A program made the position numbers and the translations under genes. This document shows, piece after piece, positions 4,712 through 21,511 of a DNA stretch of 22,451 nucleotides. Location: the IMG/VR virus record IMGVR_UViG_3300026183_000042, positions 1 to 22,451 of that record; one strand, given 5' to 3'. The first letter of the stretch is position 1, and the number at the start of each line of letters is the position of its first letter. The notes under the pieces are model-generated. The model worked only from the letters and a program-made list of their open reading frames with translations. It was not told the DNA's origin and made no database searches. The DNA is from a virus.

Positions 4712-7324
4712 TTATCCTGCATCCATTGTAATATTAGTATTATCAAATGTTGTTGTTGATTCATCCATAGTATTTTGCGATACATCACCGATTTGTGCAG
4801 GAATTGTAAAATTTGTTTTAAGTTTTCTTCCTTCAGCACTTGAAGTTATTAAAAAAATCGCATTTGAACCATCTAAAGAGGTTCTTGTTCCTTGTACTTT
4901 AATATCATTAAGTATTTGAAAAGTAATACCACTACTACTAAATGAATTGTTTGCAGTAACTCCAAAAGCAGTATTAATAAATTTGCTTAAAACACCAAAT
5001 CTTGGCCCAGCATATGCAAACCCTTGTCTTACATTTACTAAATCACCTGATGAATTAGATAAATTTCTTCTAACTCTACTTACATAATCAATATTAATAG
5101 GTTGTGTTTTTAAAGTAACATCTCTTGTTGTTTTGTCAAACTGTGTAATTGTGCCTGTATCTAAATCAGCTGATACACCTAATTTTGCATTTGCCCTTAA
5201 TGTAGTACCATCGGTTTCAGTACCTAATCTTCTTCCTACTATAAATGAATATAATCTTGTTATTACTGATCTTAAAATTTCTGTTACACCAGAATTTATT
5301 CCTGTTACCCTCTTAATCTGAGCGTCTAGTTGAGTCTCAATTGTAATTTCACCTTGAAAATAAAAACCAGCAGAATGAAGTGTTTTAATATAACTATCTC
5401 TCCATTCATTGATTGATCTTCCAACTCTAATAATGTATGAGTAATCCTGATACAATAAACTGTCTTGTATTTTCATTGTATCTTCAGATATCCAACCATC
5501 TTCATTTAAAAAAGCACCATCGGTTGTAATTACACCAGCTACATCTGTAGTACCTGTCGCTTGTTCTAATTTACTAACAGTCGCTGTTGCACCACCAGAA
5601 CTTGTAACAGTAATATTTGTGCCATACACTCCTGTTGTATCTGATAATTTTAATATGTTTGTGTCTGTACTAAATGAAACTACTGTAGAAGTTATAACAG
5701 ATGAACCATCTGAACCTAATCCAGAAACGGTTTCACCTGATGTAAACGCTCCTGAAACATTGGTTACTAAAAGATATGTTGGTAAAATTATTGTTGGAGC
5801 AGGAGAAGCTTGATAATTGTATCCAGCTTCAACAACATTTATTGTTAATGCTCTTCCTATTTCAGAACCGTATGCTAAAACTTTTGCACCTGTTCCTAAA
5901 CTAGATGTAACTGTAAGTGTAGGTAGAGATATAAATCCATTACCATTAGATATTAAACGAATGTCTGTTATATCTCCTACATTACCACCAACTTCTTGTA
6001 CAACTTTATTTCCAAAGTATGAGTCATCAGCCATTGTTTCATCTTCTAAAATAAGTTGACCTGAACCTGTACCATCTTCTAATGTAACACCTCCATTAAC
6101 AACAGAAACTTTAGCTGATGCATTACCAAAACTAAAATTAACAATATCACCAACTTCATAATTTGCACCACCATCATCTATAACAATTTCTTGTATTGAG
6201 CCAGAACCGACTGGTCCAAGTTTTAAAGATGCTCCTGTTCCACCAGCAGTTAATGATACACTATCACCTTCACTATATAATGCACCATCATTTGTTATAA
6301 CTTTATTATTAATAATACCTGTAACTATAACAGATATGGTTACGTCTAAATCGGTATTGCTTGTTCCAGTTATTGTTTGTCCTGAAACAAACGTACCATT
6401 TACTGAAGTATCTCCTAAAACTAATTCTACAACTTCTTGTCCACCTATAATAAATTTAAATACATCTTCAACAATAGCTGTTGCCTCATTAATAGATGAA
6501 TCTGTTAAATTGTTTGCTTGTGTTATAGTTTGTCCAATAAGATTACTAGCATCAAAACTGCCAACCTCAATACAACGCAATATTTTTTTTGTATCCCATT
6601 TACCATCTGATACTCTTAAAATATTATCTTTTGGATATCTTATCTCAGCATCTTCATTAAATAATAGTTTAAAAAATATTTCACTTGCACGTTTTGTACC
6701 TTTTGCTTGATAAAGTGATTTAATATTTTTAATTAGATTTCTTTTGTTAACATCACCATCTAATGTATCAGGTATAGAAGTTAAAAATGAATTTCTAAAT
6801 TTAGTTAAAAATCCTGATATAGTTTTATCCACATCAGCGTAATCTAAAAGTTGTTGTATGTTTTGAACTGGATTGGCTCTATACTTACCAATGTTTGCCT
6901 GAGCACCTGAAGATGTGCCTGTAATTAATTCACCTTCTATAAATTTATTTTGATGTGTAACAAATAAACGAGAACCTGCGTCAACATCTTCTACTAAAAC
7001 AGTAGCAGTTGCACCTGAAGTAGCACCTGTAATTGTTTCACCATTTATAAAATCACCATATGATGTATCTTCTAAAAGTATTCTATCTGTAGAATCATCT
7101 TTGTTTACATTTGTACCATCTAATAATAAAAAGTTATTTACATTAACTGAACTATCTAATTGAAGATGATCTGGATCACCAATGTTTGTTAATTTAATCT
7201 CAGCTGATTCCATCAACTGATAATACGCTTTTATAAAGTCTAAAAATAACGGATGATCTTCAAGTACAAAATCAGGTACTTGTGAATTTAAAAGGTTTGA
7301 TATTTTATCTTTAAAGTCGGCCAT
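4712..7324 (-). CDS. Large baseplate wedge protein in the gp7 position
   Basis: This 870-residue virion protein follows gp6 with 5 bases between them, the place gp7 takes in T4 (gp7 is 1032 residues). Residues 1-40 (VPDFVLEDHPLFLDFIKAYY) and an alpha-helical stretch at about 155-240 (TKFRNSFLTSIPD, LYQAKGTKRASEIFFKLLF) resemble the large baseplate proteins of cyanomyoviruses, often labelled wedge initiator. The centre is beta-rich, with several copies of a short motif of the form GExITGxTSGAxAxV. A second helical block (INEWRDSYIKTLHSAGFYF) precedes the C-terminal domain. No enzyme motif is visible. Assignment to gp7 rests on position, size and family resemblance, not on clear sequence identity to T4 gp7. 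Confidence 0.65.
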   Translation of the reverse strand: MADFKDKISNLLNSQVPDFVLEDHPLFLDFIKAYYQLMESAEIKLTNIGDPDHLQLDSSVNVNNFLLLDGTNVNKDDSTDRILLEDTSYGDFINGETITGATSGATATVLVEDVDAGSRLFVTHQNKFIEGELITGTSSGAQANIGKYRANPVQNIQQLLDYADVDKTISGFLTKFRNSFLTSIPDTLDGDVNKRNLIKNIKSLYQAKGTKRASEIFFKLLFNEDAEIRYPKDNILRVSDGKWDTKKILRCIEVGSFDASNLIGQTITQANNLTDSSINEATAIVEDVFKFIIGGQEVVELVLGDTSVNGTFVSGQTITGTSNTDLDVTISVIVTGIINNKVITNDGALYSEGDSVSLTAGGTGASLKLGPVGSGSIQEIVIDDGGANYEVGDIVNFSFGNASAKVSVVNGGVTLEDGTGSGQLILEDETMADDSYFGNKVVQEVGGNVGDITDIRLISNGNGFISLPTLTVTSSLGTGAKVLAYGSEIGRALTINVVEAGYNYQASPAPTIILPTYLLVTNVSGAFTSGETVSGLGSDGSSVITSTVVSFSTDTNILKLSDTTGVYGTNITVTSSGGATATVSKLEQATGTTDVAGVITTDGAFLNEDGWISEDTMKIQDSLLYQDYSYIIRVGRSINEWRDSYIKTLHSAGFYFQGEITIETQLDAQIKRVTGINSGVTEILRSVITRLYSFIVGRRLGTETDGTTLRANAKLGVSADLDTGTITQFDKTTRDVTLKTQPINIDYVSRVRRNLSNSSGDLVNVRQGFAYAGPRFGVLSKFINTAFGVTANNSFSSSGITFQILNDIKVQGTRTSLDGSNAIFLITSSAEGRKLKTNFTIPAQIGDVSQNTMDESTTTFDNTNITMDAG

Positions 7325-7329
7325 TTCAT

Positions 7330-9186
7330 CTAATAACTACTAGTCGTGGTATATCCAATACCAGCGTTTGCTGAGCCTCCTACTAGTGTATCAGCCTCTA
7401 CTGTGACTGAACTATTTGCAACATCTATTTCTAATATTTGATTTCTAATTGGAACTAAATCATTTGAATTTGGTTTTACTGTTACTTCGATAACTGTTGA
7501 AGCTGCACCTCTAATGTTTTCTATGTTTGAAACATTTAAAGAGTTTACTTCAACTTTACCTGTTGAATAATCTATTGTACCTTGTGTACTATTACCATAC
7601 GCTCTTACTGAGCCATCCATTCTATATCTTCTAACATTACCTTGTCCATCATCATCTAATAACCAAACATTTGTTGTATCACCATCTATTTTAAATCCTG
7701 TTGAAGATAAAATACCACCCTCAACAGAAGCGTGACCAGAATGTGGATTGTATAATGCGTTTGCAAAATTAATTGTATATTTTGTTGAACTGCCAATTGT
7801 AGGTATAAAAGACTTTCTTAATCTTACAGTAGTTATATTTGATAATATACTTTCATCTGTATCATCAATTAATCCTGTAAGTTTTGAGTGTCTAAAAATT
7901 GTATCAAAAGATTGTAGGGTATTTGTGTTGTAATTTGTAATTGTAGTTATAATGTTTGATTTCAAAGTATCAGCTGTTTTTGTTGTTATTTTTTCATCAA
8001 ATTTAATTGTTGATGCTAAAAGTACATTTGTAGTTTCTGGATCAACAATTACAGGTGTTACTGAAGCAACTGAATATTTTTTTAAGTCTGCTACTATTCT
8101 TGCCTTTGTAGAATCTGTAAGATTAGAACCACTGGTTGGTAAAATAGAAATATAAACTCTACCATAAAAAGGTGTTTCAGCATCTTCACCACCCCAAGCA
8201 GAAATTGCTTGTGTGTTAGCGTAAAGTTGTTTTACTTTTGATTTATAATCTTCTATTGTTACAGCTCTATCTTGTGATGAATAAAAATCAGGAGTATTTC
8301 TTTTTATACTTTGTAATGACTCTGGTTCAGCACCACCTTGTGCTGACGAATTTACTGTAACGGTAATGTCTGTAAAACCTGAAATAGAACCTGAAAGAGT
8401 AAATGATGTAGCACCATTTGCTTCTGTTTTATTAGTTACAACATAACTTACATTTATAATGTTTCCGTCATCTAATTTTTTACCAATTACACCATCACCA
8501 AAATAAATTTCGTATTGACCATCCTCTGCTTCTTGTAAAAAGAAAACTTTTGATGTGCCATCCAATTCTGTGATTGAGGTTGCTTTTGTATAAACATTTG
8601 TAGTAACATCAGCAGCACTATTTTGAATTACAACCTTAATTGTAGTTGTATCAACTCTATCACTTGAAATTAAAAACCTTTGATCAATATCTTGTTCATC
8701 ATAAGTGTAGTTGTAACTTACATAAGTTCCTTCATAAACATTTAAACTTTGTACAGTATAAACTCCGTCAACAGGTTGAACTGTTTTGTCAGCAACCGTA
8801 ACGAATGAATATGTAAGATCATCTATTGATGATGTAAATTTTGTACCTGCTGGAATTGTAATTACTGATCCTGTACCATCGTTGATTACTAATTTTAAAT
8901 CAGCGATTGGTGCTCTAGCTGAATTAGGAGTATAACCAACTAATTTGGCCAATGAAGCAACACTACTTCTTAATTGTGCTGTATCTAAAAACATTTCGTT
9001 GGCAACAAAGTTAGCATTGTAAGCCAAATAGTGTGTATTATAAGCAAGTAAGTCTAATAAAATTGCTAATGAACTTCCTTCAAAGTCGTAATCTTTAAAT
9101 TCGTTTTGATTTGATAAAAATCTTTTAAGTGAACCTTTTATATTTTCAAAATCTAATTCTGATATGTCTAGTCTGTGTGAACTCAT
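7330..9186 (-). CDS. 6: Baseplate wedge protein gp6
   Basis: This 618-residue protein resembles gp6 of T4-like phages (about 660 residues in T4), the protein that forms the ring joining baseplate wedges. The N-terminal block is typical: LDLLAYNTHYLAYNANFVAN at about 46-65, then EMFLDTAQLRSS and LAKLVGYTPNSARAP. The middle has QSIKRNTPDFYSSQDRAVTI followed by EDYKSKVKQ, the signature seen in the wider gp6/GpJ/Mu gp47 family. One base separates its ATG from the gp25 stop codon, so the two are translated from one message. The gp25-gp6 pairing is conserved in T4-like phages, which supports the call. Confidence 0.92.
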   Translation of the reverse strand: MSSHRLDISELDFENIKGSLKRFLSNQNEFKDYDFEGSSLAILLDLLAYNTHYLAYNANFVANEMFLDTAQLRSSVASLAKLVGYTPNSARAPIADLKLVINDGTGSVITIPAGTKFTSSIDDLTYSFVTVADKTVQPVDGVYTVQSLNVYEGTYVSYNYTYDEQDIDQRFLISSDRVDTTTIKVVIQNSAADVTTNVYTKATSITELDGTSKVFFLQEAEDGQYEIYFGDGVIGKKLDDGNIINVSYVVTNKTEANGATSFTLSGSISGFTDITVTVNSSAQGGAEPESLQSIKRNTPDFYSSQDRAVTIEDYKSKVKQLYANTQAISAWGGEDAETPFYGRVYISILPTSGSNLTDSTKARIVADLKKYSVASVTPVIVDPETTNVLLASTIKFDEKITTKTADTLKSNIITTITNYNTNTLQSFDTIFRHSKLTGLIDDTDESILSNITTVRLRKSFIPTIGSSTKYTINFANALYNPHSGHASVEGGILSSTGFKIDGDTTNVWLLDDDGQGNVRRYRMDGSVRAYGNSTQGTIDYSTGKVEVNSLNVSNIENIRGAASTVIEVTVKPNSNDLVPIRNQILEIDVANSSVTVEADTLVGGSANAGIGYTTTSSY

Positions 9187-9187
9187 A

Positions 9188-9619
9188 TTATCTTACTCTT
9201 TGTAAAAATGTTGATACTGAAACTGGTGCTTCTGTGCCGTTAATTAAGAATGAAACCATAATATTTAATCCATTATTTTCTTCATCATTTTGAACCACAA
9301 TATCTTCTACTGAAACTCTTGGTTCATATTTTTCAATTGCCATAGCAACTCTATCTTTAATGATAACTAATAATGGTTCAGTTATATTTTCAAATAAGAA
9401 TCCTCTTAGGTTACATCCAAAGTCAGAATTAAAAGGTCTTTCATACTTATTTGTTAAAATAATATTTTTAACAGCTCTTTTAATTGCCTGTGCATCAAAT
9501 AATTTTGCAACATCCTTTGTAGCAGGATTTTTAGTAAAACTCAAATTTAAATCACTATAGATTCGATTTGATCTTTTACTTTTATTTGTTGTTGTTGCGT
9601 CATAGTTTGAAAAGGCCAT
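9188..9619 (-). CDS. 25: Baseplate wedge protein gp25 (GPW/gp25 family)
   Basis: This 143-residue protein is close in length to T4 gp25 (132), the sheath-initiating wedge protein of contractile tails. It has the family core: ALKNIILT-like AVKNIILTNKYERPFNSDFG at about 50-69, LRGFLFENI, and IEKYEPRVSVEDI near residue 100. Its ATG has no Shine-Dalgarno sequence; a late promoter TATAAATA ends exactly five bases upstream, so the transcript may be leaderless. It can also be translated from longer transcripts that read through the PAAR gene. gp6 follows directly. Confidence 0.92.
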   Translation of the reverse strand: MAFSNYDATTTNKSKRSNRIYSDLNLSFTKNPATKDVAKLFDAQAIKRAVKNIILTNKYERPFNSDFGCNLRGFLFENITEPLLVIIKDRVAMAIEKYEPRVSVEDIVVQNDEENNGLNIMVSFLINGTEAPVSVSTFLQRVR

Positions 9620-11702: not shown

Positions 11703-12215
11703 ATGCCAAACTGGTGCGATAATTATGTTGAGATAAAAGGTCCTAAAAAAGTATTAGATGAAATAGAGGACATTGTTAAAGAAGAAAATAACGATAAAGA
11801 AAGAAAACACGGTCTATTAAATCATTTAAGACCTATGCCAAAAGAAGAAAAGGATAATTGGTATCAATGGTCGATAGACAATTGGGGAACTAAATGGGAT
11901 ATAACTGAATTTTATGGTACAAAAAGAGATGGTGACAAACTATGCTTTTCTTTTCAATCAGCTTGGGGACCACCTGAAGAAGCCTTTGATTACTTTTATG
12001 ATAATAATGATGACGTAAGTATCAACTTAAAATATTATGAACCTGGTATGGATTTTGCTGGTATCTATAATGATGGAGATAGTGATAGTTATACTTTGTC
12101 AGAAGCTGCACCAAAAGGACCTAAAGATGAGTTTTGGCAAACTGAAGATGGTAAGGCCTTAGATGATACTTTTGAAATTGTCCAACAGATGATAGACTTT
12201 GGAGATAATGAATGA
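11703..12215 (+). CDS. Api92-like protein (DUF1281-type ferredoxin-like fold)
   Basis: This 170-residue protein has the hallmark start MPNWCDNYVEIKGPKKVLDE and the central WSIDNWGTKWDI and FSFQSAWGPPEEAF motifs of the Api92/DUF1281 family. That family is widespread in phages and plasmids and has a ferredoxin-like fold. Its biochemical role is unknown to me. The acidic C-terminus (about 130-170) matches the variable end of this family. The gene has a strong AAGGAG and its last codons overlap the next ATG (ATGA), so it is coupled to the serine hydrolase gene. Confidence 0.85.
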   Translation: MPNWCDNYVEIKGPKKVLDEIEDIVKEENNDKERKHGLLNHLRPMPKEEKDNWYQWSIDNWGTKWDITEFYGTKRDGDKLCFSFQSAWGPPEEAFDYFYDNNDDVSINLKYYEPGMDFAGIYNDGDSDSYTLSEAAPKGPKDEFWQTEDGKALDDTFEIVQQMIDFGDNE

Positions 12216-13423
12216 AAAAATTTTTTATATACTATCTCTTATTTACATTTTTATTATGTGTTGGTGTTGTTTTTGCTGATCACGGTAATGAACCCTATTG
12301 TTTTGATTGTATGCACAAGTACAAAATCGGTGATAAAAAAAATAACACATATGAGTTTGAGTTTGATTTGCAAACTAACGAATTATCAAAAACAGTTAAT
12401 GAACAAATATCAGACAAAAAAACAGGACTTGTAAGTTATCTATTATGGGAAAATAATAAGATTATAGTTGATCAGAATAGAAAAAGTAAATACACAGGAC
12501 CATATCCTTCACACTCAATTGGTAAAAGTTTAGTATCTGTTGTTACAGGTTATGCTCTATGTGGTGGTTATATTAATCATACAGTTTTTGATAGAATAGA
12601 TTATCCAACTGTAGCTAATACTTTATATGAAAATCAAAGATTGATTGATTTACTCAATATGCAGGCAGGTGATGATGAAATATTAGGTGAAAGAATTTAC
12701 GGATGGGACAACCCTATCAAAGGTAAAGGTCCTAATATTAATACAATACCGATTAAAACTGTTATGAAAAGATACTTTAAAAATAAAGATGGTTTAGAAC
12801 CTGGTACTTATTATAATTATAGTGCTATGACAACCAATGTTATTATGAACTATGTAATTTACAAAACAGGTGATGATTGGGAAAAATTACTTCACAAGGT
12901 ATTTGTTGAAGACGCAAAAGTTGAAAAAAGAGTTTATTTTGGCAAGACTTTAAATAAGAATAAAGTTGGTAATAGAAAGTCTGGTGAATACGGTAGATAC
13001 TCTCTTTGGGCTCAAAGATATGATTATTTAAGAATTGCAAAATTAATATTAGATCATTGGAATAATGATACTTGCGTTGGTAAATATTTAAAGACAATGT
13101 ATGAAAATAGAATTGATAAACAGTTTATTCAGTATAGTAAGTTTAGAAATAACCATAGTGCCACTCAAAGTTATGGTGGTCAATTTCACTTTGATCCGAT
13201 TGGTATTAATGACAGACCAATTTTAATGATGGATGGTGCTTGGGGTCAACAAGTAGTTATTGATTTTGATAATAACAGAATTATAACTGCTCATTCTACA
13301 GATAGACATTACGACTATTACAGTTTGATTTATTTACAGCTAAATCAGAATGATAAACAAAGTAAGAGAAAGAAGTGTAGAAAATACATTAGTGCTGAAC
13401 ATTTTGTATTAGAACCGTGTTAA
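12212..13423 (+). CDS. Secreted serine hydrolase, beta-lactamase superfamily
   Basis: This 403-residue protein has a signal peptide (MKKFFIYYLLFTFLLCVGVV then FA|DH), so it is exported. The mature part fits the serine beta-lactamase/DD-peptidase/NylB-like superfamily. The S102-I-G-K105 motif supplies the SxxK nucleophile and base; PGTYYNYSAMTTNV near 197-210 is the Tyr motif region, with Ala where many relatives have Asn; and a late GAWGQQVVIDFD block matches the usual GxGGQ strand. Possible substrates include peptidoglycan peptides, amides or esters, and cannot be decided here. It is closer in motif pattern to the NylB/EstB-type esterase-amidase group than to clinical beta-lactamases. It is the last gene of the rightward operon, overlapping the preceding gene by four bases and followed by a terminator. 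Confidence 0.8.
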   Translation: MKKFFIYYLLFTFLLCVGVVFADHGNEPYCFDCMHKYKIGDKKNNTYEFEFDLQTNELSKTVNEQISDKKTGLVSYLLWENNKIIVDQNRKSKYTGPYPSHSIGKSLVSVVTGYALCGGYINHTVFDRIDYPTVANTLYENQRLIDLLNMQAGDDEILGERIYGWDNPIKGKGPNINTIPIKTVMKRYFKNKDGLEPGTYYNYSAMTTNVIMNYVIYKTGDDWEKLLHKVFVEDAKVEKRVYFGKTLNKNKVGNRKSGEYGRYSLWAQRYDYLRIAKLILDHWNNDTCVGKYLKTMYENRIDKQFIQYSKFRNNHSATQSYGGQFHFDPIGINDRPILMMDGAWGQQVVIDFDNNRIITAHSTDRHYDYYSLIYLQLNQNDKQSKRKKCRKYISAEHFVLEPC

Positions 13424-13589: not shown

Positions 13590-13605
13590 AGGAGACCTCC
13601 TATCT
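13590..13605 (-). promoter_or_regulatory. Hairpin that could hide the micropeptide ribosome site
   Basis: On the minus strand, ATAGGAGGTCTCCTAT can fold with ATAGGA pairing to TCCTAT around a four-base loop. The stem covers most of the AGGAGG and reaches the AT of the start codon, so translation might be controlled. Confidence 0.4.
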
Positions 13606-13857
13606 ATTTTTTAATAACAGTTTTAGTTTTTCGTACCAATAGATACCACCTTCTCGTAGATTTTCATTGGCCGTTCTTAATTTTTCTAATCGTTTTGTTA
13701 AGTCTTTTAAAGATTTTTTATCTAACGCCTTTTTCTTTTCAACAAGTTTTTCTAACTTTTCAATAACATTATCTATACTGACACAAGTATGATTAGGTAT
13801 TTTAGGCGCCTTTTTCTTTAAAGACGTAAGTGTAAGTTTCTTAGGCGTTTTAGGCAT
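13600..13857 (-). CDS. Small Lys-rich coiled-coil protein (85 aa)
   Basis: This 85-residue protein starts MPKTPKKLTLTSLKKKAPKI. From about residue 29 to 72 it has a heptad-like run of Leu, Lys and Glu (VIEKLEKLVEKKKALDKKSL), typical of a coiled coil. The C-terminus is YWYEKLKLLLKNR. I know no family for it. An AGAGGA ribosome site precedes the ATG, and a late promoter lies about 70 bases upstream inside the end of the SGNH gene. The micropeptide gene follows. Confidence 0.65.
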   Translation of the reverse strand: MPKTPKKLTLTSLKKKAPKIPNHTCVSIDNVIEKLEKLVEKKKALDKKSLKDLTKRLEKLRTANENLREGGIYWYEKLKLLLKNR

Positions 13858-13913: not shown

Positions 13914-14777
13914 TTATATGTTAGTATTTATATGGTTTAAGATAATATTTGCTATTTTATTATGACCGTTTTGATTAGGATGATTATCTTTTATATATTC
14001 TGTGAAGGTAGTTAAGTCAGATATAAAATCTTTTTTCTTATCTAATTTATCATATAAAGAATAACCATCAAGTGACATTAAGCCTGGCCAACCTATAAAA
14101 TTATTTTTATCCATTGATAGATATGGTGCAAAATTTATTATCTCACCAGACAATTGTTTAGTAAAACTTTCCTGAATTATGTCTAGGTTGTTTATTTGCT
14201 TTGGTCTTTGTGGTGAACCAAATGTATAATCTAAATTAAACTCTGCACCTAAATTTGATAATTTTTGTAAAGGTATAGACTGTACCATCTTATATGGTAT
14301 ATTATTAAATTTTAAAAAAGTTTGTAATAGATACATATATCTGATTGAGTGTTTTACTTTATAATACATATCACCTCTTAAAGGGTCTGTATATAATATA
14401 CTGTCCCAAGCATAATTATTATCATATCTTTTTAAGTTTCGTTTTTCAAAAATATTTTTTACATAATAATCATTTTCATTTTTCTTATATTCAAAATCTG
14501 TACGTTTTGCCTCACTCCAAGCAACAATAACTAAGCCGATATTATCTCTTTTATTTTTATTCATTGATGTAATATTGTCAATTAGAGAGGAACAAATATA
14601 TTCGTTTCCTGAAGCTCTTTTTCCATAATTTATTAAAGTCATATTTAATTTATCAGCTAATATATTTGGCCATCTATTATAGTTACGTACAATATCATTT
14701 GAAACATTTATGTCCTCAGATAATTGCTCTGGATCAGTCCAACTACAGCCACTTACTATTAAAAACTTTTTATGCAT
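13914..14777 (-). CDS. SGNH/GDSL-type hydrolase
   Basis: This 287-residue protein has three SGNH-type blocks. Block I is LIVSGCSWTDPEQ, with Ser12 as probable nucleophile; YGKRASGNEYI holds the conserved Gly57-Asn58; and the C-terminal DNHPNQNGHNKIA supplies Asp264 and His266. Related proteins occur in marine myoviruses and are inferred to be esterases or lipases, possibly acting on glycans or lipids. I start it at the ATG at 14775-14777; the longer reading would need a TTG start. AATAAATA lies exactly five bases before this ATG and there is no ribosome site, matching the leaderless pattern of the divergent neighbour. A late role is therefore likely. The substrate is unknown. Confidence 0.7.
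   Translation of the reverse strand: MHKKFLIVSGCSWTDPEQLSEDINVSNDIVRNYNRWPNILADKLNMTLINYGKRASGNEYICSSLIDNITSMNKNKRDNIGLVIVAWSEAKRTDFEYKKNENDYYVKNIFEKRNLKRYDNNYAWDSILYTDPLRGDMYYKVKHSIRYMYLLQTFLKFNNIPYKMVQSIPLQKLSNLGAEFNLDYTFGSPQRPKQINNLDIIQESFTKQLSGEIINFAPYLSMDKNNFIGWPGLMSLDGYSLYDKLDKKKDFISDLTTFTEYIKDNHPNQNGHNKIANIILNHINTNI
13925..13932 (-). promoter_or_regulatory. T4-type late promoter inside the end of the SGNH gene
   Basis: An exact TATAAATA on the minus strand, within the last codons of the upstream gene. The predicted start near 13919 gives a leader of about 61 bases before the coiled-coil gene. The early part of the leader (ATATAATTTTATAT) could form a small hairpin. Confidence 0.55.
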
Positions 14778-14802: not shown

Positions 14803-15429
14803 ATGATTATTGATGATATATTAAAATACAGACGGCATGTAAATGAATTTGTAGATGAAATACCTGATAAAGAATTAATAAATTCACTTCTGCAAAGAAC
14901 TTGGAAAGTTACGCCATCAAAGAATAACTTTATGACCTATACGGTACATATTGTTACAGATAATTCTACAAAGAAATTAATTTTTAATATGTGTACTGCA
15001 AACGAAAAGCAGGTAAATGAAAATAGTACAACTGAAGGTGAATACAAATGCATCTTATCTGCACCTTATGTTTTATTGTTTACACAAAGACTTGAAGATA
15101 AACCTAACAAACGACAACAAGAATTAATTAACAAAGGTATTCATTATGAAGCTGTTAATCCTAATGAACTTAAAAATATATATCCTACAAGCTCTATTGA
15201 AGTTGGTATGTTTGCAAATACATTAACAGGATTATGTTTAGAAAATAATTTAGATGTTTCATTCACAAAATGTTTTTCACAAAATTATAAAGACTGGATA
15301 GAAACTTTACCTTTTGTTAATAGAGATCCTATAATGATAATGTCTATTGGTAAAGGAAAGATATATAGAGAAATAAATAAAAACGACTTACGTCCAGATT
15401 TTGAGAGAATTATTAATTGGGTAAAATGA
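14803..15429 (+). CDS. Nitroreductase-family flavoprotein 1
   Basis: This 208-residue protein has the nitroreductase (FMN-dependent oxidoreductase) layout: KYRRHVNEF at 8-16, VTPSKNNFMTYTVHIV at 36-51 (the usual APSxxNxQPWxF region), SAPYVLLF near 86-93, SSIEVGMFANTLTGLCLENN at about 130-149 and IMIMSIGKG near the end. Residues FMTY replace the typical QPW, so FMN or substrate contacts may differ. The family uses NAD(P)H to reduce nitro, quinone or other groups, or to dehydrogenate rings and peptides; the substrate here is unknown. I choose the ATG at 14803, as an upstream in-frame extension would need a non-ATG start and run through the promoter. Its stop overlaps the next ATG (ATGA). It is a distant paralogue of the gene at 17571. 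Confidence 0.75.
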   Translation: MIIDDILKYRRHVNEFVDEIPDKELINSLLQRTWKVTPSKNNFMTYTVHIVTDNSTKKLIFNMCTANEKQVNENSTTEGEYKCILSAPYVLLFTQRLEDKPNKRQQELINKGIHYEAVNPNELKNIYPTSSIEVGMFANTLTGLCLENNLDVSFTKCFSQNYKDWIETLPFVNRDPIMIMSIGKGKIYREINKNDLRPDFERIINWVK

Positions 15430-15992
15430 AAAAGGTTATATTATTAATTGACTTTAAGGGTCATCAAATACTTGCTGATGATTATGTAAATAAATTAAGA
15501 TACAGCACACTTCAACAAATAACTGAAAACCCGTCCATAGATAGAAATAGCTCTGTTATATTATCTATTGGTAGTAGTAATGAAGATGAGAAATTGCAAG
15601 AAATACGGAATATTGCTGTAAAAGAAAGATGGAAATGGCTAGAAATTCATAATGATAATTCTAATGTAGAAGATATAGAAAAATTAGTATCGGAAAAACT
15701 CAACTATAGCATGAATAATACCAATACTCAAATTATCATAGGAGGTTGCAATACCTCAGGATGTGTGTTAAAATCTAAATTGTGTAGTGCAAAACATTTT
15801 TCAGATAAAAAATATAAAACAAATATAGTACTACCTATGTGTGCTGAATACGAAGCTTCAGGAATAAATGATATAGAGAAAAATATGAAAGCATTTGTTA
15901 GAGTTTATAATTATGTAAAAAAGAATAAGTTAAACTATATTGATGTAGTGGAAGCAATTAATGATATTGATTTTAAAAAAATAGATACCTAA
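15426..15992 (+). CDS. Isochorismatase-like cysteine hydrolase
   Basis: This 188-residue protein fits the isochorismatase-like hydrolase fold. VILLIDFKG carries a candidate catalytic Asp9; VILSIGSSN looks like the second strand; IIIGGCNTSGCVLKSKLCSA at about 103-121 matches the family motif GxxTxxCV, with Cys113 as nucleophile; and YKTNIVLPMCAE matches the next strand. The catalytic Lys is not obvious. The family cleaves amides, vinyl ethers or similar bonds (nicotinamidase, isochorismatase, N-carbamoylsarcosine amidase), so the substrate cannot be read from the sequence. The ATG at 15426 overlaps the nitroreductase stop; an earlier TTG is possible but less likely. It may act on the same small molecule as its neighbours. 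Confidence 0.55.
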   Translation: MKKVILLIDFKGHQILADDYVNKLRYSTLQQITENPSIDRNSSVILSIGSSNEDEKLQEIRNIAVKERWKWLEIHNDNSNVEDIEKLVSEKLNYSMNNTNTQIIIGGCNTSGCVLKSKLCSAKHFSDKKYKTNIVLPMCAEYEASGINDIEKNMKAFVRVYNYVKKNKLNYIDVVEAINDIDFKKIDT

Positions 15993-15998
15993 TAAAGA

Positions 15999-16006
15999 TA
16001 TAAATA
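15999..16006 (+). promoter_or_regulatory. T4-type late promoter for radical SAM gene, leaderless geometry
   Basis: An exact TATAAATA, then AAATT, then ATG at 16012. T4 spacing starts transcription at the A of ATG. There is no ribosome site. Confidence 0.65.
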
Positions 16007-16011
16007 AAATT

Positions 16012-17571
16012 ATGAGTGACTTAAATAATAAGCCTGTGAAAGATATTGATGATATGCACGATAAACAGGTTGAGAAAATGCTTACAAAGGGTGGTCCAGG
16101 TGATCGCTCAACACCTGGTAATGTAAATACTGAAGAATGGTGGAAATGGGAAAATCTATCAGATAAAACAAAATTCAAAGCTACTAAAACTATACCTGGA
16201 CAACCACCAGAAGACAAGTCAATTTTACAACAAGCAAAAGATAAAGATATATGGTTTTGCACAATACCTTTTACACAGGTCTATAATGAAATAAGTGGTA
16301 AATACAGAGCTTGTTGTTTTGGTAAAGATGCTGAACACGAAACTATTAAAAATACCACATTAAAAGAATGGATGGTTGATAGTGAATATATGAATAGTAT
16401 TCGTAAAGAAATGCTTGATCCTAAAACAGACTTTAAAGCAGTTAATGATATATGCCGAAGATGTAGAAGTGATGAGGACAAATACGGTAGAAGTAGAAGA
16501 ACAAACTGTTTAAAAATCCATACTAACGATAAAGAGTTTTGGGATAATATTCAAAAAAATGTTGAACTATACAAGGCGAGTGGTAAGTGGGCCTTTGATG
16601 AAAGAATTTTAGAAATACAATTAAAAGTATTTGGTTCAGAATGTAACCTTGATTGTTTTATGTGTGTACACGCTAACTCAACAACTAGACAACGTGTTGC
16701 TGAAAAGGGTGTTTGGAATGATGCTGTATTTGGTGAACGAGGTAAAGTTAGAGAAGACTATATGAAACTTGTAATGGCAGATAAAACTGAAGGTGTTACT
16801 GAACAAGTACTTGAATTATTACCTTACGTTAGAAGTATTAAAGTGATTGGTGGTGAACCATTAATTATGAAAAAACATTATGAGTTATTAGAAAAGGTTA
16901 TTGAAAGTGGCCATGCAAAACATATCTATTTAAAATATCAAACTAACTTAACTAAAACTAAAAAAGGTAGACACAATATATTTAATTACATTCCTCATTT
17001 TAAAAATGTATCTATGGTTGCTTCGGTAGATGGCATTGGTAAGACTATTGAATACATGAGAAGAAGAACTGAATGGGAAGAAGTTGTTGAAAATATAGAA
17101 ACGTGTCGTCAACATCCTAACGTTGTTGTTGACTTCAATGGTTTAGTTTCTAATCTTTCAGTTATGAGATTTTACGAAGTTATTGATTGGTGTAAAGATA
17201 ATCCTGTTATAGACCAATTGAATTGGGCAATGATTGACAAACCTAAACATTTAAGACCTAACAACTTACCAGAAAAAATTAAGAAATCATTAATACCAAA
17301 ATATAAAGATTGGCCTGATATAGTAGCTGCATTAGAAAGACCTGCTGATCCAGATGTAGATTTACAAAACGTATTTGATTATATGTTAAAGGCAGATAAA
17401 TTCTATGAAGGCACAAAATGGGAATCACATTTGTTTGATGTGTTTCCTGAACTAGAAGAATTTTATGATCCTACTAAACATAGAGATCATAACGAACAAG
17501 CAAAAATATTTCAAACATGGGATAAATCAGTAAAAGAAGCTGAAGAAACATCTGATACAAATATTATATAA
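16012..17571 (+). CDS. Radical SAM enzyme with N-terminal SPASM/twitch domain
   Basis: This 519-residue protein has a polar N-terminal tail (1-75), then an auxiliary Fe-S region with Cys83, Cys101-Cys102, Cys148 and Cys151 (RACCFGKD and ICRRCRSDE). The radical SAM core follows: ECNLDCFMC gives Cys211, Cys215 and Cys218 in the CxxxCxxC pattern that binds the catalytic 4Fe-4S cluster, and VIGGEPLI at 278-285 is the GGEP SAM-binding motif. The order SPASM-then-core is the reverse of most peptide-modifying SPASM enzymes, but is known in twitch-type radical SAM proteins annotated in marine phages. It should generate a 5'-deoxyadenosyl radical; the substrate is unknown. Its stop overlaps the next ATG (TAATG), tying it to the second nitroreductase. 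Confidence 0.88.
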   Translation: MSDLNNKPVKDIDDMHDKQVEKMLTKGGPGDRSTPGNVNTEEWWKWENLSDKTKFKATKTIPGQPPEDKSILQQAKDKDIWFCTIPFTQVYNEISGKYRACCFGKDAEHETIKNTTLKEWMVDSEYMNSIRKEMLDPKTDFKAVNDICRRCRSDEDKYGRSRRTNCLKIHTNDKEFWDNIQKNVELYKASGKWAFDERILEIQLKVFGSECNLDCFMCVHANSTTRQRVAEKGVWNDAVFGERGKVREDYMKLVMADKTEGVTEQVLELLPYVRSIKVIGGEPLIMKKHYELLEKVIESGHAKHIYLKYQTNLTKTKKGRHNIFNYIPHFKNVSMVASVDGIGKTIEYMRRRTEWEEVVENIETCRQHPNVVVDFNGLVSNLSVMRFYEVIDWCKDNPVIDQLNWAMIDKPKHLRPNNLPEKIKKSLIPKYKDWPDIVAALERPADPDVDLQNVFDYMLKADKFYEGTKWESHLFDVFPELEEFYDPTKHRDHNEQAKIFQTWDKSVKEAEETSDTNII

Positions 17572-18323
17572 TGTACGAAGAACTAATAAAAAAACGTAGG
17601 CAAGTAAGAGCAGCTTGGGATAGTAAAAGAATACCAAGTAAAGAAGAAGTTGAATCTTTACTAAAAATATGTTTAGATATAACACCTTCTAAAAATAATC
17701 TACAACCATTTAAGATACACGTTATAGGACCTGATAATAAAAAAGAACTTGATATATTAACAGGTATATGTGCCTTACATAAAACAGGTAGTGTTGCTAG
17801 ATATGAAAGAGAAATGGATAATGAAAAGGACTTTGAAAACAAAAGACCACCATATACTTTACTATTTACTGCAAGATTGGCTGAAGATAATCAGTTTACT
17901 GCTGAACACGAAAAAAGACACAAACAAACTGATATAGATGTTGGTAGAACTGATAAAAGATTTTCACAATCAGATCCAGTTGCATTTAGAAGAACTGCAA
18001 ATAGAAATCTTGCCTCATTAGAAGTAGGAATGTTTATTATGTCACTAACAGCACTTGCATTAGAAAAGGGTTTATCTGTTTCATTTATACAATCATGGCC
18101 TATATGGGATTGGGATGAAAATGAAAACAAATACATAGTAGAAACAAACAAATATGGTAAACAATGGTCAGAATTGCCATGGGTAAAAGAAGCACCCTTA
18201 CACGTATTACAATTAGGTTATAAAGCAAATTTTGACGACCCTTTAAAAACCAACTCTACAGACCCTAAAGGAGAAAATTGGGAAAACAAATGTGACCCTA
18301 ATAAAATCATACAATATCATTAA
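17571..18323 (+). CDS. Nitroreductase-family flavoprotein 2
   Basis: This 250-residue protein is a nitroreductase-type FMN enzyme: KKRRQVRAAW at 7-16 (phosphate-binding Arg residues), ITPSKNNLQPFKIHVI at 37-52, PPYTLLFTARL, SLEVGMFIMSLTALALEKG at about 149-167 and a final VLQLGYK strand. It shares TPSKNN, the LLFT-R-L block and EVGMF with the gene at 14803 but keeps the usual QPF and is about 40 residues longer. The two could form a heterodimer, as nitroreductases are dimers whose active sites lie between subunits. It starts inside the radical SAM stop codon, indicating coupled expression. The substrate is unknown. Confidence 0.82.
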   Translation: MYEELIKKRRQVRAAWDSKRIPSKEEVESLLKICLDITPSKNNLQPFKIHVIGPDNKKELDILTGICALHKTGSVARYEREMDNEKDFENKRPPYTLLFTARLAEDNQFTAEHEKRHKQTDIDVGRTDKRFSQSDPVAFRRTANRNLASLEVGMFIMSLTALALEKGLSVSFIQSWPIWDWDENENKYIVETNKYGKQWSELPWVKEAPLHVLQLGYKANFDDPLKTNSTDPKGENWENKCDPNKIIQYH

Positions 18324-18326
18324 AGC

Positions 18327-18354
18327 TTGACACTAGATTATAATATGATATAAT
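18327..18354 (+). promoter_or_regulatory. Consensus sigma70 promoter for the SPASM/rSAM/PP-loop genes
   Basis: TTGACA (18327-18332) and TATAAT (18349-18354) match consensus exactly with a 16-base spacer. A second TATAAT occurs at 18339-18344 but is too close to this TTGACA. The expected start falls at or next to the ATG at 18361, with no ribosome site, so the message may be leaderless. Confidence 0.75.
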
Positions 18355-18360
18355 AGAATT

Positions 18361-18693
18361 ATGAAAGAAATGGATCCAAAAGATATAAAAATTAAACCAA
18401 GGTGTCTAACATATGAACCTACGAGTTATCATAAACCAGCTGCATATACTTCAGATGGTTATATGTTACCTTGTTGTTGGTTAGATGATCCAAAAAATGA
18501 TCACGGTGTAGAGGAGGTCTTTCATTTAAAAGATGAACATCTTGCATTAAAGAATAATGATAAGTTAGAAGATATATTTGGTTCTAAAGAATGGGAACAC
18601 TTTTTTGACACCCTACTAAATAATCCTAGTTGTGCTTTGAAACAATGTCAATATAAATGTGGCAATAGAGAAAAAGATAATTATAAAATATGA
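18361..18693 (+). CDS. Stand-alone SPASM-type Fe-S protein
   Basis: This 110-residue protein has six well-placed cysteines: Cys15 (PRCLTYEP), Cys38-Cys39 (GYMLPCCWLDD), Cys91, Cys96 and Cys100 (CALKQCQYKCGN). The pattern C...G-x-x-x-PCC...LEDIF...C...C...C resembles the SPASM/twitch auxiliary-cluster domain of radical SAM enzymes, including the N-terminal part of the protein at 16012, but there is no radical SAM core. The core is supplied by the next gene, which overlaps by four bases (ATGA). I infer that the two proteins form one enzyme in which this subunit holds an auxiliary Fe-S cluster and perhaps the substrate. Promoter and start are set by the sigma70 site directly upstream. Confidence 0.75.
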   Translation: MKEMDPKDIKIKPRCLTYEPTSYHKPAAYTSDGYMLPCCWLDDPKNDHGVEEVFHLKDEHLALKNNDKLEDIFGSKEWEHFFDTLLNNPSCALKQCQYKCGNREKDNYKI

Positions 18694-19451
18694 ACGAAAA
18701 AATAACAGATTTCTATATTCGTAATCAACGCTTTTCATCACCAAATATGGATTTATCACATAGATGTATATTACGTTGTCCACAATGTTTAAGACAAAAG
18801 GTAGAAGGCCTTCCTAGAATAGCAAGATCATTTGATATAGGTCAAAACGAATTTAGAAAAGTGTTAACCTATTATGAAAATCAAATAACATTTTGTGGTC
18901 AAATATCTGATCCAATTTATCATCCTGAATTTTTAACATTTTTAGAAATGATGGATGGTTTAGGTAAAGGATTGAGAATTGCAACCAATGGCACTAATAC
19001 AAAAGGTATGGATGAAAAGTGGTGGGAAAAAGCATATAGTTATGGTTTAGGAGAAAACTGTTGGTATTTCGGTGTAGATGGTTTAGATAAAAAGTCAGAA
19101 ATATATCGTATTGGTTCTAACTTTGAACAGGTGTGGGAAACAATGAAAATGGGTGTTGCTATGGGTCACCCAATAGTCTGGCAATATATAATATTTGGAT
19201 ATAACGAACACGAGATTGAAAGAGCAAAAGAAATGGCTGAAGAAAATGGTATGACTTTATTGTTAATTAAGACTAATAGAGGCTTTGATCCAAAAAGTAG
19301 GCAGTTAAGAAAGAATGTAACAAAGGCATATGAAAACTTTCCTAAACCAAGTGATAAGAATGTAGTTAAAAAAATAAAAAATGAAGAATATTTTAATGTA
19401 ACACCTGCATTAACACACTGGAGAAAAGTAAGACACGGAGAAATTAAATAA
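18690..19451 (+). CDS. Radical SAM enzyme core
   Basis: This 253-residue protein is a radical SAM core: LSHRCILRCPQC holds Cys26, Cys30 and Cys33 in CxxxCxxC. The GGEP position is replaced by FCGQISDPIYHPEF (68-81), and IATNGTN and YFGVDGLDKKSEIYR match later strands of the barrel. It lacks a C-terminal SPASM domain; the preceding SPASM-only gene probably provides it. Its start lies inside that gene's stop (ATGA), and its own stop overlaps the QueC-like gene (TAATG). QueE is a radical SAM enzyme that works just before QueC in 7-deazaguanine synthesis, but this protein is larger than most QueE and does not show clear QueE features. The substrate is unknown. Confidence 0.85.
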   Translation: MNEKITDFYIRNQRFSSPNMDLSHRCILRCPQCLRQKVEGLPRIARSFDIGQNEFRKVLTYYENQITFCGQISDPIYHPEFLTFLEMMDGLGKGLRIATNGTNTKGMDEKWWEKAYSYGLGENCWYFGVDGLDKKSEIYRIGSNFEQVWETMKMGVAMGHPIVWQYIIFGYNEHEIERAKEMAEENGMTLLLIKTNRGFDPKSRQLRKNVTKAYENFPKPSDKNVVKKIKNEEYFNVTPALTHWRKVRHGEIK

Positions 19452-20296
19452 TGAATATAACATACAACAACATAACGATTCCTTTTTATTCAAACATAGC
19501 AGATTTAATGGAAACATCACCTTATAAAGATAGAGCCAAGGCTGATGTAGCATTAGATGAAAATGGTATACCTAAAACAGTAGTTGCTTCACTTTCAGGT
19601 GGATGTGACTCTGCAGCTGCATTATATTTAACTGCAAAACATTTCCCCAACATTGATGTTTATCCTTTAACATTTAGAGATGTACATGGACCAAAAGATG
19701 CTGACGCAGCTGCTGAAATAGTTGAGTTTATAAAGAATAGATTTCCTAAAGCAAAGATACACGAACATACAATTGAAAACTATGATGATAAGGATCCTGT
19801 ACACTATGTAAAAGCACAAAAATTTATAGATGAAAGACCTGAATACAAAACATTAAACTTACAACAAATGTCAAAGGCAAATCAAATAGATGATGGCTCA
19901 GATGCCTTTATGGCACGTTTAGATAGACCTTTACGTTTAGATGGTATGTCAGCAAACCCACCTATGGAAGTAAGAATAAAGTTTAGTGAATATGCAATAA
20001 AGAAATTTCCTAATATCAATTTTGATAAAAATAACATTGCTAGAATAAGAGGTGAAGCAAGACGTGATGTTGAAAACGAACCTGAATTAAAATACAATGT
20101 ATATAAACCATGGGTTAATTTAAACAAAAGATTTATTGCAAGTATCTATAAAGAAGAAGGTTTAATGAAAGACCTATATCCTATTACACGTAGCTGTGTT
20201 GGAGGTCCTAATCAAACTAATAACTTTACTGAATGGTGTTGGCAATGCTTTTGGTGTTATGAAAAAGCTTGGGCATTTGATTTATTGCCTAATTAG
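19451..20296 (+). CDS. QueC-like PP-loop ATPase
   Basis: This 281-residue protein has the PP-loop SGGCDS at 49-54 (VVASLSGGCDSAAALYL), which binds ATP and activates a substrate by adenylation. The C-terminus has Cys249, Cys263, Cys266 and Cys269 (WCWQCFWCYEKAWAF), the zinc-binding pattern of QueC (C, then CxxCxxC). QueC turns 7-carboxy-7-deazaguanine into preQ0 with ammonia and ATP. The match is limited to these motifs, and the other deazaguanine genes (folE, queD, clear queE) are absent here, so another amidation, nitrile- or sulfur-forming reaction is equally possible. Its start overlaps the radical SAM stop (TAATG). The 3' end overlaps the convergent gene by eight bases. Confidence 0.75.
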   Translation: MNITYNNITIPFYSNIADLMETSPYKDRAKADVALDENGIPKTVVASLSGGCDSAAALYLTAKHFPNIDVYPLTFRDVHGPKDADAAAEIVEFIKNRFPKAKIHEHTIENYDDKDPVHYVKAQKFIDERPEYKTLNLQQMSKANQIDDGSDAFMARLDRPLRLDGMSANPPMEVRIKFSEYAIKKFPNINFDKNNIARIRGEARRDVENEPELKYNVYKPWVNLNKRFIASIYKEEGLMKDLYPITRSCVGGPNQTNNFTEWCWQCFWCYEKAWAFDLLPN

Positions 20297-21146
20297 TATA
20301 TCCGTAATACTTAAACTCTTTTTCATACTGTTCATTATACTTGTCTTGTATTTCAGCCAAATGTTCACCAAAATAAGTTTCATATTTAATAGTAAAAGGT
20401 TTATAGGGTTGAGTCCATTCACCGTGTAACGTGCTATTTGGTATATAATATTCCTGAAAGAATATACTCTTTAAACTTTCATCATCACAATCCTCTAACC
20501 ATAGATTACGTAAATTAAGTCTTGTACTTGCTTGATCATAATGTGGTATTATAATTTCGTTTAGATAACGAACACTTGTACAATATTGACCAAAGAAATA
20601 AGCATCCCATTTAAATACAGGTTTATACTTTAACACAGTTGATTTTAAGGTATCTTCAACGTTAACACCTATATTGTTTTTATTATGCCAATTATGTAAT
20701 TTCTCTCGTTCAGTTAGACCTATATCTCCAGCTCTATCTAAACTATCTCTTACTGCTTTATGAAACAACCAACTTAAAAAAGCCTTCCATAAATACTTTC
20801 TACGTAGTATTACAATTTGATAACCACTATAGAACTCCTGAAACCAATCAAATACACAATGTACATTTGGACGAGAAGGTATATGAATTGGTGTCATTAA
20901 TTGATGAGCATGAACATTCATAAACATATTTAAATTCCATGTATTACGACAATCTTCTAAAAACTCTATTCGTTTAGAAATAGGTTGCATAGGTTTAGTA
21001 GGATTAACATCTAAAAATTCGTTTGTAAAAGATACAGGAGGTAACAAACCATTATGTTTGTATATCTCTCTTATAAAGTGAGCCACATAATGAGAGCCAT
21101 TACGAGGCATAGAAATTAATATAGGTGTTTTTGTTCTTTCAAGCAT
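20289..21146 (-). CDS. Sulfotransferase-like P-loop protein
   Basis: This 285-residue protein has the two nucleotide-binding regions typical of sulfotransferases: a P-loop-like ISMPRNGSHYVAHFI near 11-25 (family PRSGTT, 5'-phosphosulfate loop) and VILRRKYLWKAFLSWLFHKA near 131-150 (family RxPxxxxxS, 3'-phosphate site). Such proteins transfer sulfate from PAPS to sugars, lipids or small molecules, and occur in marine phages. I start at the ATG at 21144-21146; the longer frame needs a TTG start. No good ribosome site is seen. It is convergent with the PP-loop gene, overlapping it by eight bases, and follows the IscA-like gene. The acceptor is unknown, and not every family member has proven sulfotransferase activity. 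Confidence 0.65.
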   Translation of the reverse strand: MLERTKTPILISMPRNGSHYVAHFIREIYKHNGLLPPVSFTNEFLDVNPTKPMQPISKRIEFLEDCRNTWNLNMFMNVHAHQLMTPIHIPSRPNVHCVFDWFQEFYSGYQIVILRRKYLWKAFLSWLFHKAVRDSLDRAGDIGLTEREKLHNWHNKNNIGVNVEDTLKSTVLKYKPVFKWDAYFFGQYCTSVRYLNEIIIPHYDQASTRLNLRNLWLEDCDDESLKSIFFQEYYIPNSTLHGEWTQPYKPFTIKYETYFGEHLAEIQDKYNEQYEKEFKYYGYTN

Positions 21147-21202: not shown

Positions 21203-21511
21203 TTAGACACTAAAACTTTCCCCACAGCCACAACTAGATTTACTATTAGGATTCGTTATCTTAAACTCACTATTAAACTCACCCTCTACCCAATCTAAGG
21301 TCGTACCAAGTAAATACAATTCTAACTCTAAACTGACCACTAATACATTACCTAATAAACAATCCGTATCTTCTCTTTCGTTAGTAGTAGACCACTTATA
21401 TTCAAAGCCTGCACATCCACCACCCTTAATGTCTAAACGAACATAAGTCGTGCCTGCCTTATTTGCTATGTAAGTTAATCGTTGTATTGCGTTTTCTGTT
21501 AGCTCTAGCAT
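21203..21511 (-). CDS. A-type Fe-S cluster carrier (IscA/HesB family)
   Basis: This 102-residue protein has the family length and ligands: GGGCAGFEY with Cys33, and CGCGESF with Cys94 and Cys96, the three cysteines that hold a 2Fe-2S or 4Fe-4S cluster during delivery to target enzymes. Other conserved parts are LTENAIQRL at the start and FKITNPNSKSSCGCG near the end. HesB-like genes are known in T4-like cyanophages and pelagiphages. In this window it lies near two radical SAM enzymes and a SPASM protein that all need Fe-S clusters, so it may serve them as well as host proteins. The ATG has no clear Shine-Dalgarno sequence. Confidence 0.92.
   Translation of the reverse strand: MLELTENAIQRLTYIANKAGTTYVRLDIKGGGCAGFEYKWSTTNEREDTDCLLGNVLVVSLELELYLLGTTLDWVEGEFNSEFKITNPNSKSSCGCGESFSV

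Follow-up and report, generated by a model that had tools for sequence, protein, structure and literature searches.

A phage cluster of radical SAM, flavoprotein and PP-loop genes that may form half of a two-locus sugar-conjugate pathway

What could seven enzyme genes, lying head to tail between the baseplate genes of a T4-type virus, make together? We addressed this question for positions 14803-20296 of a 22,451-nucleotide (nt) stretch of viral DNA (IMG/VR record IMGVR_UViG_3300026183_000042, positions 1 to 22,451), hereafter called the window. The seven open reading frames (ORFs) lie on the plus strand in the order NTR1, ISO, rSAM1, NTR2, TWI, rSAM2 and PPL. NTR1 and NTR2 are nitroreductase-family flavoproteins, ISO has a predicted isochorismatase fold, rSAM1 and rSAM2 are radical S-adenosylmethionine (SAM) proteins, TWI is a twitch/SPASM-like domain, and PPL is a divergent QueC-family PP-loop ATPase. 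With moderate confidence, we propose that the cluster provides the accessory half of a pathway of pelagimyophage-type viruses, split over two loci, that would build and attach an unusual aminated, carbamoylated and amidated sugar or sugar-like conjugate.

Recomputing the junctions, we confirmed the head-to-tail arrangement reported in a preliminary description of this DNA, which had been made from the sequence alone. That description recognised the overlaps but counted three of them; there are four, of 1-4 nt, at NTR1/ISO (-4, ATGA, provided that ISO starts at the ATG at 15426 and not at the TTG at 15417), rSAM1/NTR2 (-1, TAATG), TWI/rSAM2 (-4, ATGA) and rSAM2/PPL (-1, TAATG). The other two junctions are gaps of 19 nt (ISO/rSAM1) and 37 nt (NTR2/TWI, the widest of the cluster). 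Thus, all six junctions, and not five of the six, are tightly spaced, within 37 nt. Against the nearest relative, L023, the ratio of nonsynonymous to synonymous substitution rates (dN/dS) ranged from 0.03 to 0.39 for the seven genes, which are under purifying selection; two higher values (NTR1 against L024 and NTR2 against L027) came from paralogues of about 32% identity, not from orthologues.

Relatives were gathered by PPL and rSAM1 searches, and our counts refer to 34 PPL-selected loci (the PP-loop loci) and to the best 80 of 202 rSAM1-selected loci; at least 120 stretches were listed, with loci numbered to L172, and one sequence reading covered L057-L133. The preliminary description had treated the genes as one module and had named a lack of co-occurrence in related phages as the finding that would speak against it. 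We checked for this and found the genes together, in the same order, in relatives. Since the gene order recurs and dN/dS is low (the range given above), the arrangement is more than chance: the cluster is a real, conserved and modular gene set. The stable part in the baseplate slot is TWI-rSAM2-PPL, followed by a sulfotransferase-like gene and IscA, while rSAM1, ISO and the type of nitroreductase vary among the baseplate-slot relatives. A nitroreductase of either of two profile families was present in 30 of the 34 PP-loop loci, and the other four loci end near PPL.

The relatives also carry a second locus. Searching the longer PPL-bearing records, we found a DegT aminotransferase, a NodU-type carbamoyltransferase and the protein GTc35 each in 10 of 10. 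GTc35 was present in three of six further PPL records, the three misses being fragments that do not reach 32-36 kb past PPL, and in none of four rSAM1-only records. It lies 32-36 kb from PPL in all seven baseplate-slot records of sufficient length. The second locus is colinear in five mapped records, with the order GTc35, rSAM2, TWI, DUF6071 (in most), DegT, a third radical SAM gene (rSAM3), carbamoyltransferase, a methyltransferase-like gene, a GT8-like gene and others; in other records, both gene sets share one operon. The DegT protein is nearest to the sugar aminotransferases PseC, LegC and ArnB, and in L202 HldE-like and HldD-like (heptose) genes stand between GTc35 and TWI. Phage Mosig carries GTc35, DegT, rSAM3, carbamoyltransferase, a nitroreductase, TWI and rSAM2. 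Among eight control phages, GTc35 was detected in two (strongly in Mosig, weakly in CP220), the carbamoyltransferase in two (Mosig and HTVC008M), and PPL, marginally, in one (HTVC008M, E-value (E) 8.3e-4). The marginal PPL match in HTVC008M is a 257-amino-acid (aa) frame directly after the carbamoyltransferase (KC465899.1, 129922-130663).

Fusions tie the two loci together physically, because single open frames join members of both. PPL~rSAM1 occurs on 8 contigs and PPL~rSAM2 on 2; rSAM1 is fused to the carbamoyltransferase on 20 contigs and to GTc35 on 4; rSAM2~TWI was seen on 2 contigs and GTc35~TWI on 1. Single-linkage clustering had placed rSAM1 and the carbamoyltransferase in one family; we rejected this grouping as an artefact of the fusions and used profile searches instead. 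Because relatives carry the second locus (DegT, carbamoyltransferase, GTc35 and others), the cluster is probably not the whole pathway. The earlier reading of the genes as one module is supported, though probably not as a complete route. The gene context of the second locus leans to a sugar or glycan over the modified base that the preliminary description had offered among the possible products. Its statement that the cluster matches no described pathway still stands.

What we observed is a conserved and in part fused gene set that occurs together with the second locus; the catalytic roles that we infer from this are as follows. IscA would load iron-sulfur (Fe-S) clusters, and TWI would lend an auxiliary cluster in trans to rSAM2. 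The two radical SAM proteins, rSAM1 and rSAM2, would carry out radical steps on an activated sugar, which the flavoproteins NTR1 and NTR2 would oxidise or reduce. ISO might take off an amide or similar group, and PPL might adenylate a carboxylate and join it to an amine. The acceptor of the conjugate would be a glycan of the surface or a protein of the virion. Among the hosts of pelagimyophage-type viruses are some of the sea's most abundant bacteria. Should the two loci form one pathway, these phages would possess a modular set of enzymes for radical SAM, PP-loop, flavin and carbamoyl-transfer reactions, whose genes occur reshuffled and fused in many arrangements; new sugar or conjugate chemistry could be drawn from it, and it would offer a testable way by which surfaces are altered during infection.

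Several observations weigh against a two-locus sugar pathway. GTc35 resembles a glycosyltransferase by eye, and Pfam, NCBIfam, PHROGs and the PDB gave it no functional support. The GT8-like match falls under the Pfam cut-off, and HldE and HldD occur in one lineage with scores below the curated cut-offs. The second locus is not in the 22-kb window; the sugar genes lie in its relatives, and the PPL-bearing records are related to each other and do not count as independent. DegT is common, being present in 14 of 14 control genomes (the eight control phages were outside this DegT search). Mosig has GTc35 and the carbamoyltransferase but no PPL, while HTVC008M has carbamoyltransferases but no GTc35. 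Many contigs hold rSAM1, a nitroreductase and ISO but no PPL. Among the rSAM1-selected contigs, the distinct order rSAM1-NTR-ISO-rSAM1 is frequent, mostly without PPL, and ISO followed by rSAM1 was found in 38 of the best 80 rSAM1-selected loci.

Much depends on PPL (19451..20296, plus strand, 281 aa). It scored 20.5 bits against QueC PF06508, under the cut-off of 22, and matched the QueC-like phrog_1550 at E 6.7e-7. Its phosphate loop, SGGxDS, is kept (SGG, D53 and S54 invariant in 16 of 16), as are four cysteines (16 of 16), spaced C-x13-CxxCxxC in the window protein versus C(x)8CxxCxxC in canonical QueC. Comparing the PPL domain of a fused homologue (L202), whose model stands in here for the PPL of the window, we obtained as the top structural row Cap9 with its modified partner (9nto; Z 13.0 over 173 residues, root-mean-square deviation 3.7), followed by QueC (12.9), NcsA (12.6), MesJ (12.3), LarE (12.0) and QatC (11.9); rows within about 1 Z are tied or nearly so, and families beyond these rows could fit as well. 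The phrog_1550 match, SGGxDS and these structural rows bear out the earlier call of a QueC-like PP-loop protein. A PDB sequence search with PPL returned only PP-loop fragments, the PADLOC models gave no match, and tblastn at E 1e-3 found none in 50,697 phage records. Two scans of the genome_contigs collection, with two short peptide patterns each, recovered no cellular relatives of PPL or rSAM1, which is a weak negative.

The motifs of canonical QueC are, in the accessible part of one source, YxQxHxxE, VPxRN and YPDC (PMC13329287). Reading the PPL alignments by eye, we saw none of them. Of 12 records, none had QueD and one had FolE; most of them are fragments, and a host could supply both. The reported absence of queD held, and that of folE held in all records but one. 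Since the canonical substrate motifs were not seen and QueD and FolE are largely absent, PPL is, by its sequence, not a canonical QueC. It may still work as QueC does, linking a carboxylate to an amine as an amide. With the QueC superfamily (QueC, Cap9 of the type IV cyclic-oligonucleotide-based anti-phage signalling system (CBASS), and QatC), PPL shares the PP-loop fold, SGGxDS and the four-cysteine C-terminal motif; it differs in lacking the canonical substrate motifs, in its 13-residue cysteine spacing, in being phage-borne and in its link to radical SAM and sugar-type genes. PPL adds a divergent phage-borne branch to a superfamily whose members have lately been tied to protein modification in anti-phage defence. 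We also considered PPL as an N-sugar amidotransferase of the WbpG group, for which the same partly accessible source gives the signature SGGxDSxY plus CxxC(x)6CxC (PMC13329287). This was rejected, as PPL has SGGxDSA and CxxCxxC, and no N-sugar amidotransferase model of NCBIfam matched it up to E 0.1.

The second protein that bears on the alternatives is rSAM1 (16012..17571, plus strand, 519 aa). Its score of 309.9 bits against NF033640 (cut-off 170) upholds its earlier naming as a radical SAM protein and, at the level of sequence, assigns it clearly to N_Twi_rSAM. The CxxxCxxC motif (211/215/218) and cysteines 83, 101, 148 and 151 are invariant in 8 of 8 aligned sequences. A PDB sequence search returned nothing useful. 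Ahead of the folded part, rSAM1 has a glycine-rich tail with the motif TKGGPGD (residues 25-31; 16084..16104, plus strand), invariant in 8 of 8. The pattern [TS][KR]GGPGD occurs there in 68 of 82 distinct rSAM1 proteins with a complete N-terminus; these 82 remained of 124 matches once duplicates and end-truncated sequences had been set aside, and were not chosen by the motif. Aligned rSAM1 proteins fall as low as 38% identity, yet the tail motif is kept. It may serve for docking, as a lid or as an acceptor.

This tail leads to the best of the alternatives, which we consider unlikely: that PPL activates a small, radical-SAM-made carboxylate and couples it to a protein, as Cap9 does and QatC is proposed to do, with the flexible rSAM1 tail as acceptor or docking site. 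For the PPL domain, the structural comparison ranks Cap9 with its modified partner first. Besides its place in the 68 tails, the motif sits in the linkers of the five PPL~rSAM1 fusions inspected and at the end of one unfused PPL, that of L090 (3257-4096), which terminates in TKGGPGD shortly before the stop and is perhaps a broken or ancestral fusion. There is also a precedent, since QatB and the CD-NTase have essential N-terminal glycine motifs, as given in the accessible part of PMC13279940. However, the tails of the Cap9 and QatC partners carry MGGS or MGTS at the N-terminus, whereas the phage motif is internal in rSAM1. The linkers of the four GTc35~rSAM1 fusions lack it, 14 of the 82 rSAM1 proteins lack it by the pattern used, the stretch has a predicted local distance difference test score (pLDDT) of about 66 in the model, and QueC, NcsA and MesJ tie with Cap9 in the structural comparison. 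A still less probable variant would connect the tail with the second locus: PPL would load the radical-SAM-made carboxylate on the rSAM1 tail, which would ferry the intermediate among PPL, the radical SAM proteins, the carbamoyltransferase and a transferase, and then to a glycan or protein. If true, conjugation at the rSAM1 tail would be the viral counterpart of the protein modification in bacterial CBASS and of that proposed for Qat defence.

Somewhat less probable than protein conjugation is a diffusible small molecule (a nucleoside-like inhibitor, a cofactor or a signal) made during infection. Consistent with it, the radical SAM domain of the fused model weakly matched BlsE of blasticidin S biosynthesis (Foldseek E 4.5e-3) and a viperin-like enzyme (Foldseek E 7.2e-3), and rSAM1 weakly matched the prokaryotic viperin profile (E 3.1e-4). 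However, any radical SAM fold tends to give such structural matches, we noticed no resistance or export gene in the cluster, and the second locus has attachment-type genes. We think it improbable that the cluster tailors a ribosomal peptide with the rSAM1 tail itself as substrate. The conserved glycine-rich tail would suit this, and the peptide epimerase EpeE is among the weak structural matches (E 5.9e-3); on the other side, the motif also occurs mid-protein in fusions of 740-760 aa, and the gaps, 37 nt at most, are too small for a separate precursor within the cluster, the check not extending to ORFs under 50 aa elsewhere in the window; this is in agreement with the preliminary description, which had seen no precursor peptide.

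That the cluster modifies a base in phage DNA or tRNA, in the manner of the 7-deazaguanine pathways, appears slightly less probable again. Membership of PPL in the QueC superfamily speaks for it, but a deazaguanine pathway is unlikely because neither the canonical QueC motifs nor QueD was found, and FolE was confined to a single record. One of the PPL records (L195 and others) holds a GTP cyclohydrolase I gene, at G007 15477-16013 (E 1e-41), without QueD. Least probable by our estimate is a chance gathering of unrelated auxiliary genes in a plastic slot, which does hold other accessory genes in HTVC008M, Mosig and Melnitz, as conserved order, overlaps, fusions and co-presence disfavour it.

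Returning to the two-locus sugar or sugar-like conjugate pathway, we examined its remaining enzymes. TWI (18361..18693, plus strand, 110 aa; translation may instead begin at the second ATG, at 18370) is a stand-alone domain that weakly matched SPASM PF13186 (15.6 bits, under the cut-off of 21.5) and keeps four cysteine positions in 15-16 of 16 sequences. Directly after it, rSAM2 (18690..19451, plus strand, 253 aa) is a radical SAM core without its own twitch domain; it matched phrog_21308, scored 28.9 bits against Radical_SAM PF04055, just under the cut-off of 29.5, and has CxxxCxxC in all 10 aligned members. On NF033640, TWI homologues cover positions 4-81 and rSAM2 covers 183-335. TWI adjoins rSAM2 in 29 of the 34 PP-loop loci, besides the two contigs with a fused rSAM2~TWI. 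Profile comparison by hhalign found no significant similarity of either TWI or rSAM2 to rSAM1. The model coverage, adjacency and fusions suggest that TWI and rSAM2 are likely one N-twitch radical SAM enzyme in two pieces. To our knowledge, a twitch domain acting in trans would be unusual among radical SAM enzymes. Two tandem TWI genes precede rSAM2 in L037 (~8604-9232) and L049 (~6530-7152).

NTR2 (17571..18323, plus strand, 250 aa) exceeds the PF00881 cut-off (29.0 bits against 23.5). NTR1 (14803..15429, plus strand, 208 aa) alone scored 14.3 bits, under that cut-off, and its family profile reaches solved nitroreductases (3gfa, E 4.3e-9); thus, both nitroreductases of the preliminary description are retained. 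ISO (15426..15992, plus strand) has 188 aa from the ATG, or 191 from the TTG. It had no Pfam isochorismatase match, no tblastn match at E 1e-2 in the 50,697 phage records and nothing useful in a PDB sequence search. Its AlphaFold2 model (pLDDT 94.7) aligned by VIA to cysteine hydrolases, nicotinamidases and isochorismatases (Z 14.0-10.9 over 139-161 residues; families beyond the listed rows could match too), predicting an isochorismatase-like hydrolase fold. Cys116 is present in 42 of 42 aligned sequences and Asp12 in 34 of 42, and no lysine column reaches 60% or more among the 42. The catalytic triad expected of such hydrolases is Asp-Lys-Cys. So the enzyme identities first proposed mostly hold, with ISO upheld at the level of its predicted fold and with the fifth ORF and the second radical SAM protein looking like one split N-twitch enzyme.

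Checking expression signals, we found the T4-type late promoter motif TATAAATA at 15999..16006 (plus strand), 13 nt before the rSAM1 ATG, and again 13 nt before the NTR1 ATG. This late motif is described for cyanophages and T4 in the accessible part of PMC2984593. Among distinct upstream regions, NATAAATA stood ~13 nt before gp25 in 10 of 11 and before rSAM1 in 6 of 14, compared with 0.6% in shuffles, and before DUF6071 in 4 of 8; because this survey placed the NTR1 start at that of the longer ORF, it did not catch the late motif of NTR1. Upstream of TWI lies a sigma70-type promoter, TTGACA-16-TATAAT with TG before the -10 box (18327..18354, plus strand), the sole 12-of-12 site of 54 listed. 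Such a site precedes TWI in 10 of 19 distinct upstream regions versus 0.03% in shuffles. The promoter argument rests on position and conservation, because the totals of sigma70-type sites and of TATAAATA in the window do not exceed those in shuffles. We assume that expression is probably staged, with TWI-rSAM2-PPL transcribed early from the sigma70-type promoter, and NTR1-ISO and rSAM1-NTR2 late from the T4-type promoters.

The cluster occupies a plastic slot, or hot spot, of a pelagimyophage-like T4-type virus. Gp8, wedge, gp6, gp25 and PAAR genes flank it on one side and a gp5-like gene, named from its homologues, on the other. The gp6 protein is nearest to those of the Pelagibacter phages Mosig (59%) and HTVC008M (54%) and of the Methylophilales phage Melnitz (52%), where other accessory genes fill the slot. 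On the minus strand, a DUF6071 gene (13914..14777; PF19547, 35.6 bits, cut-off 27) is the divergent neighbour; it occurs in 12 of the 34 PP-loop loci and lies inside the operon in other phages. Also on the minus strand, a sulfotransferase-like gene (20289..21146), so named by eye only and with no family above cut-off, converges on PPL and has homologues in 24 of the 34 loci. An IscA-type Fe-S carrier (21203..21511, minus strand; PF01521, 39.9 bits, cut-off 26.3) is present in 22 of them.

Such phages have already been described in print as carrying radical SAM cassettes and Fe-S carriers (PMC7029224, PMC5332604, both accessible in part). The pelagimyophage host-recognition cluster of PMC7029224 belongs to the same phage group by gp6 and, like the loci described here, has glycosyltransferase-type genes and radical SAM cassettes. 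In contrast, the window cluster lies in a second slot, from gp25/PAAR to gp5, and holds PPL, rSAM1 and ISO; the accessible part of that paper mentions neither QueC-like nor split-twitch genes. T4-like environmental viral genomes related to HTVC008M likewise combine an Fe-S A-type (IscA) carrier with up to 12 radical SAM genes (PMC5332604); unlike our analysis, the part of that report at hand describes no cluster, partners or product. A literature search, with subscription papers and most preprints outside its scope, did not find the two-locus architecture, the fusions, the split twitch enzyme or the glycine tail. Campylobacter phage CP220, like the window, has several radical SAM genes near gp5 and PAAR, together with nucleotide-diphospho-sugar transferase-type genes and, just before them, a weak GTc35-like match; it differs in having an amidinotransferase and no PPL match. 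Its cluster (L055, 6267-13298) comprises five radical SAM genes, the amidinotransferase and the sugar-transferase-type genes.

Some further neighbours recur. A serine-hydrolase-like protein with a signal-like N-terminus by eye (window 12212-13423, plus strand) was found in 21 of the 34 PP-loop loci, and a conserved 85-aa protein (13600-13857, minus strand) in 23. In some phages, a gene that by eye is phosphate-binding-protein-like stands beside the cluster on the minus strand (L024, 5036-5974; L042, 5260-6192).

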